From NCBI GenBank assembly GCA_902728285.1, contig CACVBU010000260.1, positions 62,001-126,000 of the forward strand: a stretch of DNA of 64,000 bases. The letters are read 5' to 3'. This DNA is from Clytia hemisphaerica (taxonomy: Eukaryota > Cnidaria > Hydrozoa > Leptothecata > Clytiidae). Positions 7,715 through 54,215 of this stretch are shown piece after piece (position 1 is the stretch's first letter; each line of letters begins with the position of its first letter). Position numbers and translations under genes: made by a program. The notes below the pieces were generated by a model. It was not told the DNA's origin. It made no database searches and saw only the letters and a program-made list of their open reading frames with translations.

Positions 7715-7723
7715 GACTAATAG

Positions 7724-8903
7724 ATGCATTGATACATAAGTACATAGATACATATAATAGATACATAGATACATGGATATGTAGATATATAGAAACATGG
7801 ATATGTAGATATATAGATACGTAGATATATTGATACATGGATATGTAGATATATAGAATACATAGATACATGGATGCATAGATACATGGATGCATAGATA
7901 CATAGATACATAGATACATGGATGCGTAGATATGTAGATACATAGATACATAGATACGTGGATATGTAGATACATAGATGTGTAGATATGCAGATACATA
8001 GATACATGGATGCGTAGATATGTAGATATATAGATGCATAGATACATAGGTATATAGATACATGGATATGTAGATATATAGGATACATAGATACATAGAT
8101 ACATAGATACATGGTTGCATAGATACATGGATGCGTAGATACATGGATGCGTAGATATATAGATACATAGATACATAGATACATGGATATGTAGATATAT
8201 AGATGCATAGATACATAGGTATATAGATACATGGATATGTAGATATATAGATACATGGATATGTAGATATATAGGATACATAGATACATAGATACATAGA
8301 TACATGGATGCATAGATACATGGATGCGTAGATACATAGATACATGGATGCGTAGATATATAGATACATAGATACATAGATACATGGATATGTAGATACA
8401 TGGATGCGTAGATATGTAGACATATAGATACATAGATACATAGATGCGTAGATACATAGATATATGGATGCGTAGATATGTAGATACATAGATACATGGA
8501 TACGTAGATACATGGATACGTAGATATGTAGATATATAGATACATAGATACATAGATACATAGATACGTAGATACATGGATATGTAGATATATAGAATAC
8601 ATAGATACATAGATACATGGATGCATAGATACATAGATACGTGGATATGTAGATACATGGATGCGTAGATATGTAGATACATAGATACATAGATACGTGG
8701 ATATGTAGATACATAGATGTGTAGATATGCAGATACATAGATACATGGATGCGTAGATATGTAGATATATAGATGCATAGATACATAGATATATGGATAC
8801 ATGGATATGTAGATACACAGATACGTAGATATATAGATACATGGATATGTAGATATATAGATACATAGATACATAGATACATGGATGCGTAGATATATAG
8901 ATA
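7724..8903. repeat. 1.2-kb GATA/GATACATA microsatellite
   Basis: Continuous array of 4- and 8-bp variants of GATA, GATACATA and GATATGTA (with GATGCGTA). The array starts directly after the target duplication of the neighbouring MITE. On the minus strand all three frames stay open for more than 400 codons as Tyr/Ile/Ser/His/Cys-rich peptides. That is an arithmetic result of the repeat and not evidence of a protein. Confidence 0.95.
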
Positions 8904-9775: not shown

Positions 9776-10015
9776 AGGGTTTTAGCTGGATTTTATGATA
9801 CGCCTGCACAAAAAAGTCATAAAACCTGATCTGGTCGCACGGCGATCTAATCTTGGAAGTTCAAGACACTCTTTTTGACAATTTTTTTCTCTTTCTTAAT
9901 TGCTTTCAAAGCGTTCTGTAAAATATCACCGTGTTCTTTTTTGACACAATGTTTATTTAAGAGAGAGGTGCGATTTTTTTTCACTTAATTCATAATTACA
10001 AATTCCAGTGATAAG

Positions 10016-10966
10016 ATGAGTGACAGTTTTTTCAACGAAATAAATAAGAATGTCGATTTACGACTAAAGAAGAAAATCAAGGACAGCAATGTACTGAAGT
10101 CAAATCTTGCCAACCCACATTATAAAACGGTATCAATCACAGATGTCCATCGAAAAACTTTTGCCTCACTTTACGGAAGAAGGTTCATGCCCGACGAAAT
10201 TGTATTCAAACCAAAAATCGGACAGAGAAACAAGAGATTCAATGTCAAAACTTTAGAGCGCTTCTCTGAAATTATTCAAGATAATTCAATTATTGTAAAG
10301 CCATTGAAATGCAATGATTGTCTTATGATTTGTCCATGGATGCAAGTTGCAGAGGAAATCAATATTGATGTTCAAGTAAAAGGTGCTTCTGCAACATTGC
10401 CGTTATGTCAGGGAAGGCTGGTGATTCCCATAACTCAGAAGGAATCAATGATGAGATGCTTTGTTCCGTGTTGTGGCCTTGATGAAAACGATCAAGTTCC
10501 AGACTGGGTTGATTCATTTTCATTAATGGAAAATTTTGGTCTTAAACTACCATACAACATTCTCAACAGTGAAGAAGGTATTGGGAAAATATCGGTGAAG
10601 AAGAGCCTTTTCGATTTTGGATTCATTCCTAAAGAGCAAGAAATTAATGATGATGATTTAATAAAGGTTCGAAATGACGTTTATGTTGTGCGTGGTTGGA
10701 ACTATGATACATTCGATCCAAAGCTCAAAAGTTTAAGGTTTACAACAGACTGCAAAAGAAATGCAAACTCAGCTTCTTACGAAGTGTTAATTAAACCTGT
10801 GGTAAAGGGGAACTTTATATCGTTACCTGAAACATCACTAAAGAACTATCGTTCTATAGACGTAGCATTTACAAAGTGTCAAGATCTATTTGGACAAATC
10901 AACATTTCGTATCAAAATGCATGCTTTAATAGCCTTGGATTTTTAACCCATGATATAGCTGTTTGA
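10016..10966 (+). CDS. Unidentified 316-codon single-exon ORF
   Basis: An intact ATG-to-TGA frame in very AT-rich flanks, with codon use that looks like real coding. I recognise no family. The N-terminus is Lys-rich with no signal peptide or membrane segment. The middle contains a Cys-rich stretch (CNDCLMICPW near residue 100, CFVPCCGL near 147) that could bind metal. An acidic block (EINDDDL) lies near residue 220. No zinc-knuckle, kelch, RNase H or integrase motif was seen. It may be one ORF of a larger mobile element, since every identified neighbour is a TE. It points toward the RAG1-like gene at 14.6-19.7 kb, so the two are convergent, but nothing links them functionally. Confidence 0.6.
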   Translation: MSDSFFNEINKNVDLRLKKKIKDSNVLKSNLANPHYKTVSITDVHRKTFASLYGRRFMPDEIVFKPKIGQRNKRFNVKTLERFSEIIQDNSIIVKPLKCNDCLMICPWMQVAEEINIDVQVKGASATLPLCQGRLVIPITQKESMMRCFVPCCGLDENDQVPDWVDSFSLMENFGLKLPYNILNSEEGIGKISVKKSLFDFGFIPKEQEINDDDLIKVRNDVYVVRGWNYDTFDPKLKSLRFTTDCKRNANSASYEVLIKPVVKGNFISLPETSLKNYRSIDVAFTKCQDLFGQINISYQNACFNSLGFLTHDIAV

Positions 10967-11723
10967 TTTTTTTATCTTTATGATTTTTCCGGTTAGTTTA
11001 TTTTATTTCATCTAACCCTAAAAGGACTTTTACTTGTACGTAAATTTACAATGTCTAGAAAAAGAATCCACAAAACATCTCAATACCTTTTTTGTTTATT
11101 TCTTATGACGATAAAAATAGTTAATTTTTTCAAACTTTTCAAATTCGAGAAACATTTGGAACTTTCGATATCTATTTAATTTTTAAAGAAAGTCATGCGT
11201 AAAATCATATATTGTAAAAACCGCCTTCACAAATAGTTTTAATAACTTTTAAAGTGTCTTCATAATATTTTGCTTTCTTACTCTTTTCGGCAAAATAATA
11301 GGAAAATTCCGTCTCAATTCATTTAGTTTTTTTTCATAATTCGAAATTAAGTTTTTTTCAAATTTTTAAAGCTTTGAAATAGCTTGACATTTGACTTAAG
11401 TATAGTAAAAATGCAATTATATTTCGGATTTATATCTTTTGCGTTATTGACTCCAGAGTAACCACTCAATGAGAGATTAGAACCATACTGCTATAACTAG
11501 ACATTTGATTATCTCCATTTCCAAACCTAGTTTTGATAATTGAAGATTGATCAATCATTTAATACCACTGAAAGGGTTTAAAGAAGTACAGTTTGACGGC
11601 AAAAAACTCAAAATACCATAGAATAGATATGAATGTCAAAAAGTGATAATTTTTTAACCCTCTTGAGTTAAAATACTTTGTATTCCAAAATTTTTACTTT
11701 CAGGTTCAATTCATATACACCGG
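10967..11723. other. AT-rich interval, nothing recognised
   Basis: No ORF, tandem array or inverted end was found between the orphan ORF and the hairpin MITE. Confidence 0.4.
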
Positions 11724-11821
11724 CCCAGCTGGCACACAACGTTGTTTCAACGTTTATCTAACGTTCACAACGTCCATATAACGTTAGATAAACGTTAAAA
11801 TAACGTTGTGTGCCAGCTGGG
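11724..11821. mobile_element. 98-bp hairpin MITE built of AACGTT words
   Basis: CCCAGCTGGCACACAACGTT at the left is repeated inverted at the right, and the arms run almost to the centre with repeated AACGTT. The whole unit folds into one long hairpin. Related ends occur at 13091-13269 and near 14190-14226. Confidence 0.75.
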
Positions 11822-11979
11822 GGGTGACCCAGAAAGATTTTTCTTGTGATGCAATGGGTTCTAGATTATTTTTTTTCTCCATACTAGTAGTAAAGTGTAA
11901 CTTAAATTTGCAACATAAAGATTTGGTTCAGTATTTTTTGAGAAAATCTATTTTGAAGTCAAAACGCACAATAAAAAGA

Positions 11980-12150
11980 CACCCCCGTTTTACAGGCCCG
12001 TTTGGACCCCCTACCCTCTGGAAATACAGTCCTAATAAACCGTCCCTGGTATAAAAAATCATAGTCCCCATTCGTCCCCACTGGAAAAAGGCCAGTCCCT
12101 ATTGAAAAACCTGAAAATCTTTATATCGCCACTATAAGCTATGAACTACT
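11980..12150. repeat. Remnant of a CCCCACTGGAAAA-type repeat
   Basis: Contains CGTCCCCACTGGAAAAAG and GTCCTAATAAACCGTCCCTGG, close to the body of the 255-bp element at 21608-21862. Ends are decayed. Confidence 0.4.
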
Positions 12151-13090
12151 TAAATGTCTCATCCCCACTAATATTTCGAACAAAGAACAATAGAATTTCC
12201 TATACTCAGTGAAAACTTTTTGAGAACACTGTTGGATTTTGTGTCTCTTTATTTATCCCCCTGACAAAAATATTCCCACCGTCAAATCAGTATTACCATA
12301 CAACTCAAATAAACCCCTATATTTTTTTCTGGATCACCCGGAATGTATCTATTTTTTCTTAGATGTCCAGAATATCTTAATTTTTCAATTTTTTTGTTCC
12401 ACCACTTTTTTTGAGGGAACAAAACAGTCAACAAAAAAGTATGTTTTAAAATCCTGCGTTATTTAACCATGCTTCGATTTTTATTGGTCAGTGAGGAAAT
12501 TAGTAGTCTGCACGCATCCCCTAAAATAGTTTTTAATATAAAATTGTAAAATATATGGGTGTTCTGCAAAATTCTTTGACGTGATATCCGTGTCCGATTC
12601 GAATCCCCTATATCAAAAGTAATCAGAGGAGATGCAGGCAGCCTAGGAGATTAGTAAAAAAAGGTCAACATATTCAGAACTAATTTGAAATAACTGGCTC
12701 TGTTGCCTATAGAAATTATCACACTTCTTTGAAATATGGACGAAGGTTTTTTGAATTCCTAATATATACAGCTCTGTTGAGTTTCCCCTTCAGACGACAC
12801 TAATGGAATCAAAAACGAGTCAGTCTTTACATGGAATTTCTATTGTTTTCAGCAAAAAAGTTCGAAACTTCAAAACCAAATTAATCTCGCCTTTTTTGTA
12901 AACTAATCGAAAATTTGAAGGTTTTTCCCAAAATCATAAAAGGCATCCTTGGGCCAAATACAAAAATCCTCTATTTCTTTTTCGGAATACCTAAATTTTA
13001 AGCACTTGTCGAAAAATAACAACAATTTCGATTTTGGTTAATAGTAAAATGTTACTAAAAAGTTTTCCACCTGAACTTTATTCGTTTGTA
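12151..13090. other. AT-rich interval, nothing recognised
   Basis: Only short stop-bounded frames without motifs or codon structure. Confidence 0.4.
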
Positions 13091-13269
13091 CCCAGCAGAC
13101 ACGGAACGTTGTTTTGACGTCCAAATAACGCTATTTCAACTTCGGAACGTCATTTGGTCGTTGAAAAACGTTGAATGAAAATGAAACTCTTTATGATATA
13201 TTCATTACGTGATCTTTTCCAGCAGACACGGAACAAACGTTACAATAAAGTATTGTGTCTGCTGCTGGG
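13091..13269. mobile_element. 179-bp MITE, CCCAGCAGACAC ends
   Basis: Left end CCCAGCAGACACGGAACGTT and right end TTGTGTCTGCTGCTGGG are inverted, with internal AACGTT words as in the 98-bp hairpin at 11.7 kb. TA lies on both sides, so a TA duplication is possible. Confidence 0.6.
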
Positions 13270-14577
13270 TATTTTATCATTAACATGGTCAATTTGTTTT
13301 CACCGGGGACTACATTTTATTTAATATTCATCATTGATTTAAAAACTTGCTTTCGAAAGGAATTTTTGTTTTACTTTTTCCACTGCTACAGTGACAGTGA
13401 GTGGATCGGACAATTTCAAAATTCAGTTATATGAAAAATTAAAAGCAGAGACATTAAACTCCATGTGAAAAACTGCTACGATAAAAAAATCAAAAATATA
13501 ACAGTTACGTCCTGTGGGTTTTTTTATTTCATGCATCAATTAGTTCTAATTGATTTCGGATTCGGGATTGTTGGCGAAATTTTGTATTTGATGAAATACT
13601 ACAGATGTTTATTTGGGCTATGTGACGTTTTTCTTTATTAGAACAGGTAAATTTTGGTTGAGGCTGGATGTTCCTATTTTTTCAAACGCTTTCAGCCTTC
13701 GATGTTCTTATATAAAATAACAAAAAAATGGATCGTCTCAAGATACCTCCGGAATTTTATTTCAACACCAAAAACAATGTTGTTTCAACAGTCCTCTCTT
13801 GCAGCAGAAATTATTTTCTTATTTCAGGCTAGGCACGTTCTTAAGTGGTTCTTTTTTGACAACATTTTTATAAACTATGTTCTTATAAAAAAACGTGTAT
13901 GCTCGCACAAGTTAATGCAAATAACCGGGATCTCTTTCATAACCTGTTAAATCGGTAACATAAAGAAAGATTATAGGACAACGTAATTTCTTTCTAATTT
14001 GAAAAATAATGTTCTCTTTAAATAATTAATAATATAATTGTATGAAAAATAATTGCTCAAGTTACTCATATTAATCATCAAATTAGTAAAAAAGAAAGTT
14101 AGATAAATCATATGGGAAATGTTTGTCACCTTCCTAATTACAATAAAGAACTTGTTTCCTAATTACATATAAAGAAAATGGGTCTTGTATGGACGTCCAT
14201 AGGACACGTTCTGTGTCCACTGGGGCTAACATTAAACGTGATAAAAAATTCGCGGTCTATACTTTGTGTAAAATACTCCCCTTTTTACCACCATTCACGA
14301 GCGCCCTTCTTGCCACCCTCACTAAAGAGTTGTCTAAAACTTTTTCGGCCTTCCGCCAAATTAAATACCCGTCAAAAGTAGTTCCCTTAATGAATAGTTT
14401 GAAGTTTTTCATACTTCATAAGCAGCAGTTTTTGTCGCAAGCTTCAAAATTGGTTTATCCAGAAGTCTATTTTGACATTTTTTGTCCCATACGGTACTAA
14501 AATATGTGACAGATAGAAAATATAATTTTATTTATAAAAACCAGTAAAAAAAAAAAAAAAATCATAAACTTAGTCAA
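13270..14577. other. AT-rich interval with repeat scraps
   Basis: Includes a GTTCTTA-type dispersed repeat near 13826-13890 and a CCCAG-hairpin remnant near 14190-14226. Its right edge holds the 3' region of the minus-strand RAG1-like gene, with an AATAAA on the minus strand near 14529. Confidence 0.4.
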
Positions 14578-14775
14578 TCAAATTTCATCAGAAGTTTCTT
14601 CTTCATTGTCACTTGGATCGTATTCTAATTTTGGGTGGCTTGGATGGAAAGGGCAACTCCGGTTTTTCTTAGTATGCCCTGGTTCATTACAAGCTGAACA
14701 TATCACATTCCGTTTTGGCTCAAGAACGCATGATGCAAAATGAAGCTGTTTTGTACGCATCAATTTGATAATGTT
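14578..14775 (-). other. C-terminal zinc-knuckle tail beyond the TAA
   Basis: In the same frame as exon 5, after the TAA at 14776-14778, the sequence stays open to the TGA at 14578-14580. It carries CSACNEPGHTKKNRSC (C-x2-C-x3-GH-x6-C), then CPFHP and an acidic end. A CCGHC-type tail after the catalytic Glu is known in invertebrate RAG1-like transposases, so its presence here supports that affiliation. Preservation past a stop suggests a recent mutation, readthrough or an assembly error. Confidence 0.7.
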
Positions 14776-17700
14776 TTAAAAACGGCTTTTATCCAGATTT
14801 GTTTCATTTAATTCATAATACTTAATCCGCTTATTTAAATGTTCTCCACTGTTAGTAGAAAACATACCATAGCCCCAGCCGAGAAGGTTGTAGTAAGTCT
14901 GCATTAAAGATCCGATATGTTGCCTCAGGTAGTGCATATACGGAAGTTTCGAAACAAAAGCGCTGCCAGCATTCAATAAAAACTTTTGAAAATATTCCTC
15001 TGCTCTTTTCTCAAAAGTGGCGATTCTTTCTTCGTTTCCATTTAATGATCGGATATCACTGGAAATAAGGAATAGCATAATATAGAATATAAGTAGCAAA
15101 ATAAAACACTCTTGTATCACAGACTTGACGGGAGCCTATTGGAAAAGTAGGTCCAAAAAACGTTCCCGTTAGAAAATATTCGCCATTTTGAAAAAAAGAA
15201 ATATTTCTATCTCCGCTACCCAAATTTAATGTGAGTGGTACTTTGGTGTAACGCAATATAATTCAAATTCCGATGCAAGAAGAGATACAGGGATGTAACA
15301 GTATAAACATTAAAGTAAAAGACAAAATATTTAGAAAGTCAAATTGTCCGATTGCTATTCCTATATTTATGTAAAAATACTTACACTGCTAAGTCGGCAA
15401 ACCTTTTGTAAAGTCTAAGGACTTGTAGCAGCTTCCGACTACGGGGAGAATTCCAATCATCGCCTTTGTCCTCAACAAATTCATTTAAAAAGGTATCAAT
15501 ATTACTTTCAAGAAGTTTACAGTCGTTACCAATCATTTTTAACTTTTCAGAACCGTCGTAGTGCTTCTTTTTGCTAAAAATTAAAAAATATAAAAACGTA
15601 ATTACTACAATGATATACCTTTTTGGGGAAAAAAATGTAGGACAAAAGTGACGAAATATTTTATTGGAGGTGACGAAAATTTTTTCAGGTAAACAATTTT
15701 GTTCGACGGAAAATAAGTACGACATCTTTATGTCCGATAAAGTAGATTCTTCGTGCCGCCGTGAAATTTTTACTCACATCACAAGATTATGGGTTTACCG
15801 ACGATAATAGACTCGATGAAATATGAATTCTCGAAATCCAATTTACTGTTTTGTGAACTTTTTAGGAAACTTTAAGTAATAACGTAAATAGAAATACTAA
15901 ACAAGATCCTTTGTTCCCCAGAATTCTCAGACACAGTAAATGTTATCATGAATACGTGCAATGTACTTGTATCAATAATAAGGGCCGCTTCGGGGAGGGG
16001 GGTTTCAAAAAGAGAATATCGTACACCCTTGTTGAAAAATCCAACGGGTAGCCATCAAATGTTTTGATATCCTCAACAGCAGTATAAAACAATTCTTCCT
16101 GAAATAGCCTAATAATACCTTTTAAAGTAACTTTCTATTTGGAAAGCTATATAGGTACATCCTATCTTCCGTAGCGCAACAGGTATCAGAGATTCTTGAT
16201 TTCGTTTGCTAATGATATCGTGCATGAATTTCCAAAGATATCTATGGTGGGCCAAAATAAGATGGAGACCACATGGTGGGATTAGTTCTATCACGACTCC
16301 TTCAAACAAAACCGGTGCCTAAAATAAAGATAATAAATCTTAATTTAGAATAAAATTTTTATTCCTACTGGAGTGAAAAGGTTTACCGGAGCACAGAGAC
16401 AGGGGTGTTTTACTCACATTTGTCGAACACGAAACCTGGGAAAGTTCGAGTGGAGCATAATTTTCAAGACTAAGATCCCTGCCCAGGTGAATTACTTTCG
16501 CTATTAGGGAGGTTAAGTATCCGATATAAATCACGACCACGAACAGGCTTTTTCTCTACAGGAAGGTACGGGTAGCAAGGTAGCAAGGTAGATATGACAT
16601 CTCCTTTGTTCTAGAACGAAAGTTTTCACGATTTTTCGTTCTAGAGCCGTCTAGCCTTGGTTCTTTTACATATTTTCGGGATATTTACTACAGAAATTTG
16701 AAAATCTGAGACTTGATTTCTTGATTTGGTAGAAAATATATTAGAGAAAAATAGCTTAGCTTTATTAAGAATTTATTACATTAGAGTCTCCATAACTCGA
16801 ACTTCTATAATGCGAAAGATTTTTCGTTCCCCTTGAGAGTTTGAGTTGTGGAGGCTCCACTGTAATACACCCCTGTCTCAGTGCCCCGGTGGCATGATTT
16901 CAGTACATGATTTTTTTCAGTACATGGTTTCAGTACATGATTTTTTCCTACGTCACTGCAGTAATCAAATTTTTATTGCACTCATTTGTGAATTGAGATA
17001 TAAATTGAATAAAGACAGCGAAAATAAAAAACAGTTCTTGAATTCCCAAGCCATTTAGGATGATTACAAATGAGTGCAATAAAAATTTGATTACTGCAGT
17101 GACGTAGGAAAAAATCATGTACTGAAACCATGTACTGAAAAAATCATGAACTGAAATCATGCCACCGGGGCACTGAGACAGGGGTGTTGTAATTGATTTT
17201 GAAGTTCTATTTGGGTTAAGTTTCAGTCTCTGAAACTTAATAATAAAAAAAACCAATGTCTTACCCATTGACCGTAATTATTTGCAATTAAATTTTTGTA
17301 TGCAGCACTGTCTTTATTTGGACCATCCCCAAGTTTACTTCGTGCAGCTGATCCCATCACATTCATTTCATTCATGGTTCTACTTTCTCCAATTTTTGCT
17401 TTACATGATGACCATTGATTGATGTTGAGCTTGCAATGGAAACAGCCATATGCTTGAGTGCAGGAACATTTTCCCAGAACTTCTTTTACAAACGCCAAAT
17501 CTGCAACCAAAAAGACGACAACATTAAACTCTTCAGGGACTTCTCCGTTTAATGTTAATCGAACGCCATTTTTCACCAGTTCTGAAAGTTCTTGGTAGTG
17601 ATGCTTACAATGCATCTCCAATGTCTCGCGGCTTTCTGAACCACGCCATAAGGTAGTTATGAATTGGCCGTAGGGACCACTCACTAAGTCTTGAATATTC

Positions 17701-19731
17701 ATGATTGAAAACGATGTCTGTTCAGTTGGATAACGGCCTGCTCCACGAAAATTATCGCCAGTGTCTCTGAGGATGATTGTTCTCCTCTCATTTTTAAAAT
17801 TCTGATATAGATGTGTATTTTTCGATTTCAGAAAGTCTCCAAGCTTTTTATTTCGATCAGCCTCGATGAAAGATAGTTTATGTTGATATTCGTTACAACC
17901 AAAAACTCTCTCTAAAGTATCTTTAACAGTACAACCGTAGCCCATACATTGACACTCAGATTCATTACTACCATGCAACGGAAAAATATTACCAACTTCA
18001 AGATTTTTGCAATATTCTCTCAAATCATCGTACGATGGTAAAGTAACATTACAAGATTTCAATGTTGCTCTAAGTTCTTTAAATGCTCTTTGTGACATAT
18101 CATATTTCCCCATCATTATTCGAGCAGTTTCTTTGCTCTCTAGTGTCACGGGTTTTTTCACAACTTTCAATGTTTTTATAAACTTTTTCAAATTATTTTC
18201 CGATAAGCTTTGGATTGCTGACTCCACAATGGTATCGAAGTAATGATCGCAAACATACGAAACGTAACCTGAATACGTAAGGAAATGAAATGACTGTCAG
18301 AAAAAACCTTATTACACCCCTGTCTCAGTGGGAATTTTTTTTTCAGTGGGGATAAATAACGAGCAATAAAATCCAACGGGCTTATCAAAAACAGATTTTT
18401 TTATTGATTGGGATACAAAATTATATTGTTATTTTTCCAAATTATATGGGGGTGAGACATTTAAGTCGACCCGAACTTGCCTCTGGTCTCTGTCTTTCGT
18501 AGGCTTTGTAGAACCTTGGCAGAATTATGTAAAGGTCAAAGGCATATTTTAACAATTTTCAAGTAATTTCTATCTGTACTAGAAAATTGAAAATTGGCTG
18601 AATAACAAAAAATAGATAATTGTTTAGACCTCAAACTCAAAAACAGAACGAACAATAATCGGCTAGATTTTACTGAATATCATTTATGGCATCTTAGAAT
18701 ACGTTCAAAAACACTAAAAACATACTTGAAATGTCTCCAAATGAAGCATATTCAACAAGTTTATGAATCTTTTCATTTCTCGCCTTAACAGCTTTGTTGC
18801 ATAGTGTACTAGTTGGTCCGGCATTGCGTATTCGAATGTTGGTCATATCTCTCAAAGCACCGTCTTCTTTAATCCTTCGGATTTTGTCTTGCCTTTCAGG
18901 TAAGTCTGCAGCGTTACTTGTATCACAATATATTTTGTTGGGCTTACAACTGATAACTTCAATTACATCAGACCTTGTAAGACCAAAAAATTCAAATCCA
19001 GACCATCGGTGTGAAGCTGTTATATTTAGGTGTTCAAATGTTTTTTTTAAAATACCGGAAATTTCAGTTCCAACGAAAGATAAGCGTGGTTCGGCTACAG
19101 TATATATTCTGAAAATAGGTCCTTCACAACTACTTTCAATTTTCAGGTGAAGATCCAAATGTCTATTTGCATTCAATTTTACTTGACGAATAGCCTCGTA
19201 TCCAGGCTGTAGACGACATTTCTTACTTGAAATTTTCACCTCGTATTTAGGGCTGTAAACAGGTGTCCCATAACTTAAAACAGCTTTGAAAGAAAACTGA
19301 CGTGAATGACTGATTGAAATGTCAGTGGCATCAACGTCTAAATTCTCTGTTATATCAAATTCACTTTCATTGTTCATCACATTTTCATACTCCTTTGTAT
19401 TCAGCCCGAAGAATCTTTGACCAACTAATTTCCCGGATATTTGCAAATTTGATCTCGTTACAAATTTTCTGTATACAGTTGTTGGGTTGTAGCCTACAAC
19501 CTTTTCAAAACCATTATGTTCTCCTGTAAAAGTGCATTCGAATAACGGTCTTCCTAAATTGCTTGAAAATATTTTGCAGGTGACATCTATTTCTCGTTCG
19601 TTGATGATATAAAACCGTTTACAACTGTATCCATCCCTGTAATATATTCCAGAACTTGTTTTCCAATGATTTTCGTTTTCAAGATAAACTTTTCGTCCAT
19701 AGGTAACTATTCCACGCCAAGAACTGTTCAT
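14578..19731 (-). CDS. FYR-domain RAG1/Transib-like DDE transposase, five exons, two disabling changes
   Basis: Proposed exons (minus strand): 19731-18726, 18268-17265, 16318-16025, 15573-15385, 15058-14578. All four introns have GT-AG ends and keep phase once one extra A near 16121-16124 is discounted. Reading gives about 990 residues. Exon 1 holds two FYRN/FYRC-like modules. The core matches RAG1: Asp ~507 in RDTGDNFRGAGR followed by SFSIMNI (RAG1 has FSFTIMNI after its first catalytic Asp); Asp ~592 in VADLAF, then 18 residues, then CFHC, the RAG1 spacing of Asp to CTLC; PPCGLHLILAHHRYLWKF, like RAG1 DALHCDIGNAAEF; HYLRQH, a zinc HxxxxH; and Glu ~903 in STNSGEHLNKRIK. A TAA at 14776-14778 precedes an open tail with a zinc knuckle. 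The copy looks slightly decayed, or the changes are assembly errors. Transib elements and RAG recombinases share this core; cut-and-paste transposition is the inferred role. Intron 2 contains a MITE. Confidence 0.85.
16867..17187. mobile_element. 321-bp MITE with ~125-bp inverted arms, 6-bp duplication, inside intron 2
   Basis: Arms begin ACACCCCTGTCTCAGTGCCC and are nearly identical inverted for about 125 bp. TGTAAT flanks at 16861-16866 and 17188-17193 give a 6-bp target duplication. The element sits in intron 2 of the RAG1-like gene, leaving both splice sites untouched. A related copy is at 21608-21862 and a lone end is at 18314. Confidence 0.85.
18314..18480. mobile_element. Truncated ACACCCCTGTCTCAG element in intron 1
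   Basis: Starts ACACCCCTGTCTCAGTGGG, followed by CAGTGGGGATAAAT. The expected inverted right end is degraded (GGGGGTGAGACAT near 18450), so this is a partial or decayed copy. Confidence 0.5.
18726..19731 (-). other. Exon 1 of the RAG1-like gene: tandem FYRN/FYRC-like modules
   Basis: Module 1 spans about residues 28-118: YYRDGYSCKRFY (FYRN-like PvGY..R.Y), CKIFSSNLGRPLFECTF, VVGYNPTTVYRKF, and VGQRFFGLNTKEYENVM (the FYRC G..lFGL...V..l end). Module 2 spans about 172-270: LQPGYEAIRQVKLN, LHLKIESSCEGPIFRIY, LSFVGTEISG, WSGFEFFGLTRSDVIEVI. FYRN and FYRC are known together in KMT2/MLL-type chromatin proteins and TBRG1, where they form one folded unit. The exon ends at the donor CAA|GTATGT, and the split Ser codon (A|GT) joins exon 2 in phase, so the modules and the transposase belong to one reading frame. 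A chromatin or protein-interaction role for a transposase N-terminus is inference. The start ATG at 19731 lies 46 bases from a hAT-like insertion. Confidence 0.75.
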
Positions 19732-19777
19732 TTTGTTAAATTATGTCGTTTTTCTATAGAAGGCATAAGAAAAAAGA

Positions 19778-21567
19778 CAGTGGCGTAGCCAGGATTTTCA
19801 AGGGGTGTCGCAAATTTCAATTTTCAAATGGGCGGTTAGAGGGCGGTTTTTAATTTCATTAGGGCGGTGTTAAAATATGACGCCCAAACACTTCCAAACA
19901 ACCGGGGGACGTTATGGGCTGCAGATCCCAGTACCTGTGAACCCCAAACACAGGCCACGTTGCACGTGGTTAACCGGCAACTCACCATTAGACGAGTTTA
20001 CCATTTGTAAAATATTCAAAGAGTGAGTGTCTCTTTCGTAATAATAGCTTGTGGTTTCTAAAAGAATGATATTGCCTTTTGGGAAATTCCTTTTGTCCTA
20101 GGGAAATTCCCGGATAAACAAACTCTCCGTCTTACAGTTTTTGCGCTCCTTTTGTAAAATATAAAATGAAATTCTATTGTAAAGTGTGCCGATGGAGAGT
20201 GAAGGAAAAATTTGTTCATTTTTTTCAAAAAGTTATGTTATGTTAACTCTCCGTCTTACAGTTTTTGCGCTCCTTTTGTAAAATATAAAATGAAATTCTA
20301 TTGTAAAGTGTGCCGATGGAGAGTGAAGGAAAAATTTGTTCATTTTTTTCAAAAAGTTATGTTATGTTCGTGTTATATAGAAAAGTCAACAAGAGAAAAA
20401 TTCGTTTCTTGAGTGATAATTTTGTGATTTGACATAAAAGTATTTTGTATGATTTTTACAAAGCTCATCATAAAAATAACCTTCAACAAAATAAATAAAA
20501 ATTACTTTAGACTAGCAGGCTAAAATACCGTATACAAAACAATGTAATCAATCCCCCCAAAAAAACATTTTCTTGAGTCTTGAAAATAAGCACCGACAAT
20601 TTTATGTTCTTTGAAAACGAAAGATGTCATTGTCTGTAAAATCGAGCATAAAGTCTCAAATTCATAAAACAACAAGAAGCCACAACCAGTCTAAAACCAA
20701 GAACTGTCTATCATCTATCCATTACAGTATAATACAATATCATGTCATGCAATCCAATCAGAATACAGAACTACAGCATAGGATCTGTACAAGTACTCTC
20801 TCTTATATATTGCCACATACGATAGTCAATGTTCAATCACAAATCTTTACTTTATTATTTGCCATTCTGGAAACAAGCAACTTTTTCTGTCTTTACGACG
20901 AATAGCATTCTTTTTTCTTCATCAGTACAATTCTTCCCAAAAACAAGAGAAGCACTATCAGGTCGGGATCAGGTCTTGAAAACTTTTTCTGATACAGTAT
21001 TCCAAATATATCTCTCGGCTCTCTCATGGTAATAGTCTCACATCATAATATAATCGAAGAAAGATCTTGTCCCCTTCTCTTCTACTCGTTTTCTGATAAA
21101 ATAATTATAATTTACGGTCACCGACGAGACCTCTTTTGTTCTGCTAACAATTTAACACAGAGGATAACAATAGATATTAAAGTCGGTAGCCGTGTTATTG
21201 TTTTTGTGCAGACGATGAAGGCCAAAGTGAAGAAAAATTTCTTATTTTACGGTCCCGGAGCTGTCTTCATTTCTACCGAGCTCTACTAAGCTAAGGAATC
21301 GCAATACTGAATTTTGATTCGGTGCCGTAAATTTATCAAAATCTAAATATCTCCGCCAATTTAAAACATCGCCGCCAATTGAAAACCGCCCATTGAAGGC
21401 GACGTGATTTTCTAAAAAAGCCGCACGCCGCGCGTGTCCGTACGAGCGTTAGTCGCCGCGCGTCGTCCTCTTACCAGCGCTTTTTATTTCTTGTCTTTCA
21501 AAAACTTTTGTATGTCAAAAAAGGGTGTCGCTGAGTCTTCATGAGCGACACCCTAGTGACGCCACTG
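19778..21567. mobile_element. 1.8-kb hAT-like non-autonomous element
   Basis: The left end is CAGTGGCGTAGCCAGG with GGGGTGTCGC slightly inside. The right end is GCGACACCCTAGTGACGCCACTG. CAGTGGCG termini are typical of hAT elements. Flanks are A-rich (AAAAAAGA and AAAAGATT), so an 8-bp duplication is only approximate. No hAT transposase was seen. The element carries an exact tandem duplication at 20121-20368. It lies just upstream of the RAG1-like start codon. Confidence 0.65.
20121..20368. repeat. Perfect 124-bp tandem duplication
   Basis: The block starting AACTCTCCGTCTTACAG at 20121 is repeated from 20245 with no difference that I could find. This indicates a very recent duplication, or an assembly artefact. 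Confidence 0.85.
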
Positions 21568-21607
21568 AAAAGATTTACAAAATAATACTTTTTTGTCATA
21601 ATATGTC

Positions 21608-21862
21608 ATACCCCTGTGTCACAGACCCGCTGGGACCTCAGCCCCACTGGAAAATTTGGCAAAAAAATCGTCCCCGGTGGGAAAATACCCTGGAATTCCA
21701 GTCCTACTGGAAAATTTACTTTGATTTCACCCCCATTCGAAACTCAATGTTTAAAAAATTGCACTCCAAAACCATCCCACTGGATTTTTTAACCTTAGAA
21801 CAATAATAGCTTCTATCCCCACTGAGGAAAAAAGTTCCACCGGGGCTGTGAGACAGGGGTGT
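21608..21862. mobile_element. 255-bp MITE of the ACACCCCTGTCTCA family
   Basis: Ends are ATACCCCTGTGTCACAG and CTGTGAGACAGGGGTGT, flanked by TATGTC at 21602-21607 and 21863-21868 (6-bp duplication). The body has CCCCACTGGAAAA-like words also seen near 12.0 kb. Confidence 0.75.
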
Positions 21863-21868
21863 TATGTC

Positions 21869-22784
21869 TTAAAACGATAACTCATTCTACGTGCCAATTC
21901 TGAAGCAATGCTTTTATTTTGATTTTTTTTAACAAATTTAGTATTTGTTGGAAATATAATAATGACCACTTTGCTTTTAGTTGAAAATATGATTTGAAAA
22001 TTTTTTATAAAATGAAGATGAAAAATGAAAAAATCAACTATTTCATCCTTTTGTGCAATTATTTGAACCTTGCTGATTCCAGATAAATAATTTTTAGCAT
22101 CTATAACCTCGCAAAACCCTCTTTTTCGAATGAAATTTAAAATGACTTTAAAGAGTCCCCAACATTCAGAACGAGCGCTTTTTGAATGCTTTTGATTAAA
22201 GACTGAAACTTCTTTGTTTTTAATGTGTGTATGTTGAAAGCTCTCAAATTTATTTTGGAAAAAGAAAGTTATTCATGATTCGCCAAAGTTTGTGTTATGT
22301 ACTTGATAATTAGAAAAACATTGCATTTACGTTACATAGTTCATTCGAAGGCTCTCAGGAAAATCAAGATGTGTGATGCCTACTATCTATTCTCTGTTCA
22401 AATGCGATAATTACCAGTCAAAAATATCAATAAACTACAAGTATCCTTTATATCTACGAAGGCAGGAAATTCTCTCTCAAAATATTAACCCCAGCTGTAT
22501 CTACGAAAAAGTAAGAGTATTATCCGTCAGAAACTTCCTATTCACGGGAATTTTCTCATAAATAATATTTCCCCTGATGATCCTAAAAAGCAATCCGGGT
22601 CTTTTGCAAAAGTAGAACTTTAAAACCATTCGAAAAGCATTCGTCTGAATACTTTAAAGTCAATTTAAAGGGTTTGTAACGAACAGTTTGCAACCGCTTT
22701 ATTTACAGTATGAAGTCGCTTCAAATTTCGTTCGAAAAGCGTCAAGCAAACACAAATACGCTTTTCCTAATAGAAGTATTAATT
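21869..22784. other. AT-rich interval, nothing recognised
   Basis: No motif-bearing ORF or repeat ends found. Confidence 0.4.
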
Positions 22785-22966
22785 GGGGACACGGCGACAT
22801 TTTTTGTGCGATGGCAACAAAAAAGATTGTAGTAATCGCATGAAAATCTTTAAAACAAAATATAATCTAGCAGAAAAGTTAGAGATATTTGATATTGTGA
22901 CACAATTATGCGATTGCAACAAAATAAACTTTTTGCTGCAATCGCAAGAAAAAAGTTACCGTGTCC
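22785..22966. mobile_element. Hairpin-like MITE with GGGGACACGG ends
   Basis: GGGGACACGG on the left faces CCGTGTCC on the right. Between them, GCGATGGCAACAAAAAAGAT and TATGCGATTGCAACAAAATA form two diverged internal copies. No coding content. Confidence 0.5.
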
Positions 22967-24160
22967 TCAAACCTTTACCGTGTAGAAAAAATATTAGAAT
23001 ACTCCAAAAACTTCTAAGCTGTAAAGAACCCAACATCAACGTTAAATGAACATCGTTCACCATATCAAGCACCTTATTATAAAAACCAAAAGCCAACAAA
23101 GGAGATTTGTATTTGTATACAAGAATAATTTTTTTTTGCTGAAATCAATCTGACTTCCTTTTTAATTGCTTTACCTTGGTAACCTAATTGATCAATCAAC
23201 ACAGAAACACAAAATCAGAGCGAATTCAAATCACGGAACACTTTTTTTCAAAATATAATGTCTCTCTTTTTTTTTGTCGACTTTCATTAGTAAAGTCCAA
23301 AATTTAAGCCTTATCTAGATTAAATTATTATAAACGAATACAGATAAAGAAAGAAAAAGGTTGATTTCTTGTATCAGCGAAATCTTTTTCTGAAAAAACT
23401 GCAAATTGATTGTGATTTTCGAGATGAAAGAAAGCGTCCCCCGAACGTATACACTCATCCCCCGAACGTATACACGGCATAAAATTCTAATTTGAAGATT
23501 GAGTTTTATTCCAATTAATTTAAATTTAGGTTCATATTGAAGCCAAATCTATTTGTAAGACATAAAACGTTAAACTAAACCAATTCATTATGTTTTGTGT
23601 TCAAAATGTTGAAAAGAAACATTGCAATTGGAAAATTAGCAAAAAAGAGCGTAATTAAACTTCCAGTAATTAAGCTAATCTTGTGAAGAGCGAAATCGCC
23701 GTGTCGGTGTATAATTGTAAAATTTGGTATACATGCTGCTAATAGGATTATATTAAAAGTCAAAAACTTTCAGAGTGTTAAAAAAAAATTTCAGTGAGCT
23801 ATTAGCAAAATACTGCCAGCCTGGTGGAAAACACCCCCCCTGATAAAAATAGGGTTAAAATCCACGGAACCAGCCGAAGAAACTAAAATAACAATGAGAA
23901 AAGAAATACTTTCTACTAGACAAAGTTACCACACCTTTAACACGTTTCTGCCACAACGTTGTAGAAAGCATACTAGAAGGGAAGGAACTGGGATTGGATC
24001 GCCACTATCCAACCCTGTGGCTCTCACACACATTTTACAGTTCAAAGAAGAAGATGGAAAGAGTGAGAAAAGTATGAGAATTTAAAAAAGTTGGACTAGA
24101 ACCCGGTTCGAAGCCCCGACCACCCGTGACCGCTCGCAAAAGCTGGCGAACGACTTATCT
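22967..24160. other. AT-rich interval with a repeat fragment
   Basis: Bases 23817-23860 match, inverted, the outer part of the 9.2-9.8 kb foldback repeat (CCAGCCTGGTGGAAAACACC). Otherwise nothing recognised. Confidence 0.4.
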
Positions 24161-51404: not shown

Positions 51405-52170
51405 GCCCCACTAAACCTTTTAAGCTGTTCTTGGCCCAAATTTGCCCAAAAAAATGTTTCTTAAAAATCTGACTCCGTCACATTTTGGGCATTGCCATTT
51501 TGCATAATTGTGCAAAAAATCAGAAAAGAATTATGAGTCAACATTGAGAAAAGCAATATTTTCTTATTTGGTTAAAGGGAATTTCCCCAAAATACGAAAA
51601 TCCGTCTTTTAAGGCGAATAAGAATTTTCCAGGAAAAACCACTTCAGCCATTCTTTAGAGAATCTTGCCCTCCATCTTTGTAGAAAAAATCAGAAAAAAG
51701 TGACAGGATTTTACAAAAAGACCAAAAAACCCTATTTTTAGGCAGTTTTTGGCCCAAATTTGCCCAAATATATTTTTTTTCGAAAATCGGGCTCCGACAC
51801 ATTTTAGGCATTGCCATTGTGCAAAAAATCAGAAAAAAATAATGAATCAACATTGAGAAAAGCTATATTTTCTTATTTGGTTAAAGGGAATTTCCCCAAA
51901 AATACAAAAATCCGTTTTTAAGGCGAATAAGAATTTTTCGGGAAAAACCACTTCAGCCATTCTTTAGAGAATCTTGCCCTCCATCTTTGTACAAAAAAAT
52001 CAGAAAAAAGTAATGACAGGATTTTGCACAAAGTCCTAAAAACCCTATATTTAGGTAGTTGTTGGCCCAAATTTGCCCAAATAAATTTTTTCTCAAAAAT
52101 CGGGCTCCGTCACGTTCTGGGCATTGCCATTTTGCATCATTGTACCCCACCGGGGTACCCAGAGGTAGGT
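51405..52170. repeat. Three tandem copies of a ~310-bp repeat
   Basis: GGCCCAAATTTGCCCAAA, TCGGGCTCCGTCACATTTTG and AGGGAATTTCCCCAAA recur three times with steady spacing. The terminal ACCGGGGTACCCAGAGGTAG leads into GGTCCAAAAA. Related to 39.35-40.26 kb. Confidence 0.75.
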
Positions 52171-53689: not shown

Positions 53690-54215
53690 CGAATCAGAGA
53701 AGTTTCCGTATACGTCCGCAAAAAAAATTTTCCAGCTCCATTTCTAAAAAAGAGATAAAAGAACGTTCGAATGAGAAGTTTCCGTGTACGTCCGAAAAAC
53801 AAAATTAGCAAATTGAGGCGCTTCTAAAAAGGATAAAAGAACGTTAGAATAAGAAGTTTCCGTGTACGTCCGAAAAAATAAAATTAGAGCTCGATTTCTA
53901 AAAAGGATAAAAGAACGTTCGAATGAGAAAAGTTTCCCTGTACGTCCAAAAAAATAAAATTAGAGCTCGATTTCTAAAAGGATAAAAGAACGTTCGAATG
54001 AGAAGTTTCCGTGTACGTCCGAAAAACAAAATTAGAGCTCGATTTCTAAAAAGGATAAAAGAACGTTCGAATAAGAAGTTTCCGTGTACGTCCGAAAAAA
54101 TAAAATTAGAGCTCGATTTCTAAAAAGGATAAAAGAACGTTCGAATGAGAAAAGCTTCCCTGTACGTCCGAAAAAACAAAATTAGAGCTCGATTTTTAAA
54201 AAGAGATAAAAATAA
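53690..54215. repeat. Minisatellite, ~75-bp unit, about seven copies
   Basis: The unit carries GGATAAAAGAACGTTCGAAT, GAGAAGTTTCCGTGTACGTC, CGAAAAACAAAATTAGAGCT and CGATTTCTAAAAA. It lies directly upstream of the proposed first exon of the minus-strand membrane-protein gene, so it may sit in its promoter. Confidence 0.9.

Follow-up and report, generated by a model that had tools for sequence, protein, structure and literature searches.

Does the hydrozoan Clytia hemisphaerica carry a relative of RAG1 joined to modules known from chromatin proteins and, if so, is such a gene mobile? The question arises from a stretch of 64,000 nucleotides of its genome (contig CACVBU010000260.1, positions 62,001 to 126,000; hereafter, the window, whose own numbering is used throughout), in which an earlier note, made from the letters alone, had described a RAG1/Transib-type transposase fused to tandem FYRN/FYRC modules at 14578 to 19731. 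Sequence comparisons and predicted structures make it likely that this gene belongs to one copy of a family of two-gene, cut-and-paste DNA transposons of hydrozoans, with a transposase that combines a RAG1-type fold with a pair of FYR-like modules.

The transposase gene is read on the reverse strand in five exons, with all borders GT-AG and in phase. Exon 1 (18726..19731) encodes the two FYR-like modules (approximately residues 4-121 and 147-262) and a linker; exon 2 (17265..18268) encodes the first catalytic Asp (in TGDN), the second Asp, and CxxC; exon 3 (16119..16318) contains the PPCGLHLILAHHRY block and is followed by exon 4 (15385..15573); exon 5 (14776..15058) encodes HxxxxH and the catalytic Glu (NSGEHLNK). 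The frame comprises 893 amino acids and is closed by an in-frame stop codon at 14776-14778; the 990-residue spliced model proposed previously was not reproduced. Past the stop, on the same strand, lies a C-terminal tail with a Cx2Cx3GHx6C zinc knuckle (14578..14775) that is in frame in relatives. Three close copies (those on contigs C759 and C374 and the second copy on C347) and eight other loci read have a sense codon at this position; thus the stop is private to the window copy, which is probably inactive because of it.

By its predicted structure, the transposase has a RAG1-fold catalytic core, the fold being also similar to Transib, and the core contains the DDE triad and the C2/H2 zinc residues, with C(2)C and H(4)H located between the second D and E. 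The Cx2Cx3GHx6C tail is present in all 10 proteins that reach this region and in 8 of the 9 distinct genomic tails, two of these eight behind a stop; its x6 spacing is two residues apart from the Cx2Cx3GHx4C of invertebrate RAG1L. No RING was found among the Pfam matches of the transposase or its nine relatives, and no separate search was made for the nonamer-binding domain.

The gene lies inside a transposon that spans 13,866 bp in the window, later insertions included (9838..23703), and has terminal inverted repeats (TIRs), both ends reading CACGGCGAT inwards. It is flanked by a 3-bp target-site duplication (TSD), TCG, at 9835..9837 on the left and 23704..23706 on the right. Homology of the copies on C347, C759 (two copies) and C374 breaks off at position 9838, and that of C347 also at 23703. 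The TSD is exactly 3 bp long in all four elements for which both ends were read (TCG in the window, TAA in C265, TCC in C341, TCT in C522); with the bases taken as equally likely, the chance of four exact 3-bp flank repeats is about 6e-8. The search for further copies and terminal repeats suggested in the earlier note thus yielded many copies, TIR ends, and 3-bp TSDs.

These boundaries bear directly on classification. In the available text of PMC12730594, EnSpm elements have 5'-CAC..GTG-3' ends and 3-bp TSDs, as seen here; the wider CMCT clade has TSDs of 2-5 bp, CA..TG ends, and C(2)C plus H(3-4)H between the second D and E, a signature common to EnSpm, Mirage, Chapaev, Transib, and RAG1. In contrast, according to the available part of PMC7204232, RAGL has a TSD of 5 bp, a length that also predominates in ProtoRAG, Transib, and RAG. 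The family combines all of the CMCT features with the ends and TSD length of EnSpm, and none of the four elements has the 5-bp TSD of RAGL or Transib. Because both this TSD and a RAG2L are missing, we file the family in the CMCT clade rather than as RAGL; the designation as a RAG1/Transib-type transposase is supported for the fold of the core but not for membership in RAG1 or Transib proper, given the 3-bp TSDs and the lack of a sequence match to RAG1. It is a possibility to be taken seriously, albeit the less probable one, that the element represents an EnSpm/CACTA (or Chapaev) family of animals that has gained a FYR exon, perhaps present in Repbase for Hydra, and that its likeness to RAG1 is no more than the shared CMCT fold. 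The fold search cannot separate a RAG1-type from a CACTA-type enzyme because no CACTA structure is among the matches listed. Against an EnSpm identity, of the 39 Pfam families matched by the 36 proteins of A3, the 25 listed include no transposase family, and the zinc tail, the convergent second gene, and the unequal bipartite ends resemble RAGL as described in the available parts of PMC7204232 and PMC8289069.

The second gene, ORF2 (10016..10966, forward strand), is a single open frame of 316 amino acids whose start lies 178 bp in from the left end of the transposon and which is convergent with the transposase. The genome contains 78 matches to it, and an ORF2 is found within 20 kb at 33 of 59 core loci, the nearest ORF2 being convergent in 30 of the 33 (two ORF2 loci are counted for two cores each) and adjoining a neighbouring copy in the remaining three. 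Seven divergent ORF2 proteins have 24 invariant columns in common; none of the 10 database homologues carries a name, one of them being the window's own, and another, P0038, closely resembles the Clytia copies. A profile of the seven members gave no PDB match at E 10, none of the seven has a kelch or PHD match in Pfam at E 1, and the weak Pfam matches, all under the cut-off (MLPTv-like_HTH at E 0.013 and others), were taken as chance. An identification of ORF2 as RAG2 is thus unsupported. In the available text of PMC7204232, the convergent RAG1L-RAG2L pair is a mark of RAGL transposons; ORF2 sits in this very position beside a RAG1-fold partner, and the asymmetric ends are like the 27/31 bp of ProtoRAG (PMC8289069, available part), all of which would suit a strongly diverged RAG2L in a true RAGL transposon with a changed TSD length. 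The lack of kelch, PHD, and PDB matches and the 3-bp TSD argue against this derivation, which we consider improbable.

The two ends of the element are built alike, with unequal spacers. The ORF2-side end (9838..9859, forward strand) consists of CACGGCG, a 9-bp spacer, and TGGAAG, and the transposase-side end (23660..23703, reverse strand) of CACGGCG, a 31-bp spacer, and TGGAAG. Among 12 distinct ends, which fall in three subfamilies with differing spacers, CACGGCG is followed by a further block (YGGAAS or GGGAAC), with 9 bp between the two in 7/7 ends on the ORF2 side and 31 bp in 5/5 on the transposase side; 64 other CACNGC[GA] starts lack GGAA[CG] at either position. When the genome was searched for CACGGCGAT followed by YGGAAS at a spacing of 6 to 36 bp, 87 matches were obtained versus 4 for the reversed pattern, with a spacer of 9 bp in 32 and of 31 bp in 33. 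Where a gene adjoins the end, all 28 short-spacer matches lie on the ORF2 side and all 16 long-spacer matches on the exon-1 side; four matches with a 24-bp spacer on the ORF2 side are second matches within the same ends. The difference between the spacers, 22 bp, is about two helical turns; in ProtoRAG, the spacers are 27/31 bp and in recombination signal sequences (RSSs) 12/23 bp, and both systems prefer unequal pairs (PMC8289069, available part). Several of the long-spacer ends with no adjoining listed gene (17/33; C290, C338, C473, C904, and others) have like spacers and may represent one non-autonomous family sharing that end.

The searched genome amounts to 417 Mb, and the copy counts are lower bounds: there are at least 96 core matches and at least 72 exon-1 matches. 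The core matches cluster into 59 loci, 45 of which have exon 1 upstream within 6 kb; of the first 30 loci, which include the window itself and some overlaps, 24 have exon 1, at 27-100% identity. The relatives in databases include proteins of Clytia and Hydra vulgaris as well as ENA, JGI, and lgn entries, with P0001 nearly identical to the window transposase; viral contigs and prokaryote genomes gave 21 and 69 pattern matches, respectively, none upheld by tblastn, and hence no relative. The closest copies differ by a synonymous distance (dS) of 0.005-0.09, which points to recent spread. Over the 16 closest pairs per part, the ratio of nonsynonymous to synonymous distances (dN/dS) is 0.09-1.55 in close pairs, as after insertion, and 0.28-0.39 in deep exon-2 pairs, with dS saturated at values above 1.6. 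For exon 1, dN/dS covers close pairs only, and the apparent constraint on this exon rests on the conserved sequence, frame, and intron rather than on this ratio. Open frames persist in many core and ORF2 copies, as would be expected had the family been domesticated as host genes and lost mobility; this is very improbable in view of the differing flanks around alike ends, the exact TSDs, the copies that are 98-99% alike, and the decayed copies with stops. Contigs C347 and C759 each contain two copies or partial copies close by with the same left end, which suggests local duplication or nested insertion.

The two N-terminal modules of the transposase are homologous to each other, and the structure model of exon 1 matches 2wzo, that is, has the FYR fold. 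The second module matches Pfam FYRC with 20.2 bits versus a cut-off of 21; FYRC is also matched by three of nine relatives, all three under the cut-off, and by 5 of 36 family members at E up to 1. The profile comparison with PF05964 and PF05965 proposed in the earlier note thus came out in part, with FYRC just under the cut-off, FYRN unmatched, and the FYR fold recovered in the model. The fusion itself, in phase across GT-AG borders, stood: intron 1, between exons 1 and 2, varies in length from 201 to 1296 bp and keeps its phase, borders, and position in all 15 distinct loci, and the database proteins P0002-P0006, P0008, and P0009 cover the FYR region and the core without a break, P0008 (989 amino acids) being encoded on a contig of 3,633 bases. 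An artefactual fusion is rejected by the conserved intron, and the comparison of multiple copies, named in the earlier note as a way to expose two separate genes, shows a single one for the family. The view that exons 2-5 form a gene of their own, joined to an adjoining exon-1 gene only by the reader, is scarcely credible with intron 1 conserved in phase and position and these proteins continuous across it, even though a search within 6 kb gave no match to exon 1 at 14 of the 59 core loci (through decay, contig ends, or limited sensitivity).

No pairing of FYR with a transposase was found among the publications listed in a literature search that did not extend to Repbase, which may hold fragments of the family; the publications on FYR and transposases or transposons concern MLL1, silkworm SET proteins, plant SET proteins, and meiotic crossover. 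Within that scope, the claim of an undescribed transposon lineage with FYR modules and a RAG1-type core stands. In MLL proteins, which are cleaved in two, FYRN and FYRC are known to hold the halves together (PMC8401916, available part), so docking is the better-founded guess for the FYR pair, and a role in dimerization or partner binding is at least as likely as the chromatin reading suggested earlier.

Under the two-gene transposon interpretation, a transposase dimer would cut beside CAC, as RAG1 and Transib do, with one short-spacer and one long-spacer end paired in the manner of the 12/23 rule, and integration would proceed with a 3-bp stagger. ORF2 would act as a partner, in the place held by RAG2L in RAGL elements, and the FYR pair as a platform for dimerization or partner docking or, less likely, as a chromatin reader.

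Several observations weigh against this interpretation. FYRN has no Pfam match in the exon-1 product and FYRC remains below the cut-off; a genome-wide FYRC search at E 0.01 found three other loci, none of them among the transposon loci. The exon-1 model is of moderate quality (predicted local distance difference test, pLDDT, 73.9; predicted template modelling score, pTM, 0.41), and the 125 residues aligned to 2wzo are spread over positions 5-269; because the alignment crosses both modules, folding of each as FYR on its own is not demonstrated. In addition to the 14 core loci lacking exon 1, two of the nine proteins of alignment A1, P0007 (on a 2,076-base contig) and P0010, have no FYR part, and an ORF2 is missing within 20 kb of 26 of the 59 core loci (again, by decay, contig ends, or limited sensitivity). 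No sequence-only comparison detected similarity to RAG1 or RAG1L (one of these searches is uninformative when empty), so that the proposed profile check against RAG1/Transib gave no sequence-level match and the likeness is one of fold only. As for the ends, no listed gene lies beside 17 of the 33 long-spacer and 4 of the 32 short-spacer matches, spacers other than 9 or 31 bp occur in 22 of the 87, and the matches are not independent trials because many are close relatives; furthermore, in the available text of PMC7204232, Martin et al. argue that TIR asymmetry should matter rather little to invertebrate RAGL, contrary to a 12/23-like analogy.

The window copy carries two insertions, in intron 2 and in the upstream part. 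The former is a small inverted-repeat element (16867..17187), with 50-bp arms starting ACACCCCTGTCTCAGTGCCCCGG, that is not present in the copies on C347 and C759; a terminal motif like its own occurs also at 16385-16413, 18309-18330, and 21837-21862, each time outside the coding parts of the transposon. The latter, upstream of exon 1 (19778..21567; about 1.8 kb), is not present in the copies on C347 and C374, has a duplication of about 6 bp at its insertion site, begins with CAGTGGCGTAGCC and ends with GACGCCACTG, and contains a 124-bp segment duplicated exactly in tandem (20121-20368). Elsewhere in the window, there are tandem arrays at 51419-52136 (309-bp units), pieces similar to which occur also inside the transposon copy on C347, and at 53690-54211 (76/222-bp units), as well as a long array of the octamer ATAGATAC at 7720-8903 (about 148 units).

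Ideas on how V(D)J recombination arose are built on comparisons between RAG and related transposons. We regard as evenly balanced the stronger proposition that the family is a lineage apart from RAG/Transib with the whole RAG plan, that is, a RAG1-fold transposase, a convergent partner gene, and 9/31 ends that enforce short-long pairing. If this is the case, the FYR pair and ORF2 would fill the partner jobs, and both the two-gene layout and a 12/23-type rule would predate RAG2 or be independent of it. A relative from a jellyfish that follows this two-gene plan and has strictly asymmetric signals, but differs in its partner and N-terminal parts, would be an outgroup that helps ask what is ancestral: 12/23-like pairing, the convergent partner, or the C-terminal zinc tail. 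Furthermore, the presence on a mobile enzyme of FYR-like modules, which are known from chromatin regulators, makes their molecular role testable.

Compared with known systems, the modules share with the FYR of TBRG1 and KMT2 the model match to 2wzo and the FYRC match on the second module, and differ in being a tandem pair fused to a transposase, with a Pfam score just under the cut-off and no FYRN match. With EnSpm/CACTA and the CMCT clade, the family shares the CAC..GTG ends, the 3-bp TSD, and C(2)C and H(4)H between the second D and E; it differs in having no Pfam transposase match among those listed and in the convergent ORF2 and FYR modules, which the available text of PMC12730594 does not mention for EnSpm. 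From Transib, it is distinguished by the 3-bp TSD, the two genes, and the FYR-like N-terminus. From RAGL and ProtoRAG, it differs in the TSD (3 versus 5 bp), a second gene without a kelch or PHD match, the FYR-like modules at the N-terminus, the lack of detected sequence similarity, and spacers of 9/31 versus 27/31 bp (12/23 in RSSs); it shares with them the RAG1-fold transposase, DDE with C2/H2 zinc residues, a CCGHC-type C-terminal tail (with x6 in place of x4), the convergent second gene, and the asymmetric bipartite ends starting with CAC. In all likelihood, the family is a lineage of its own within the CMCT clade (RAG1/Transib/EnSpm).
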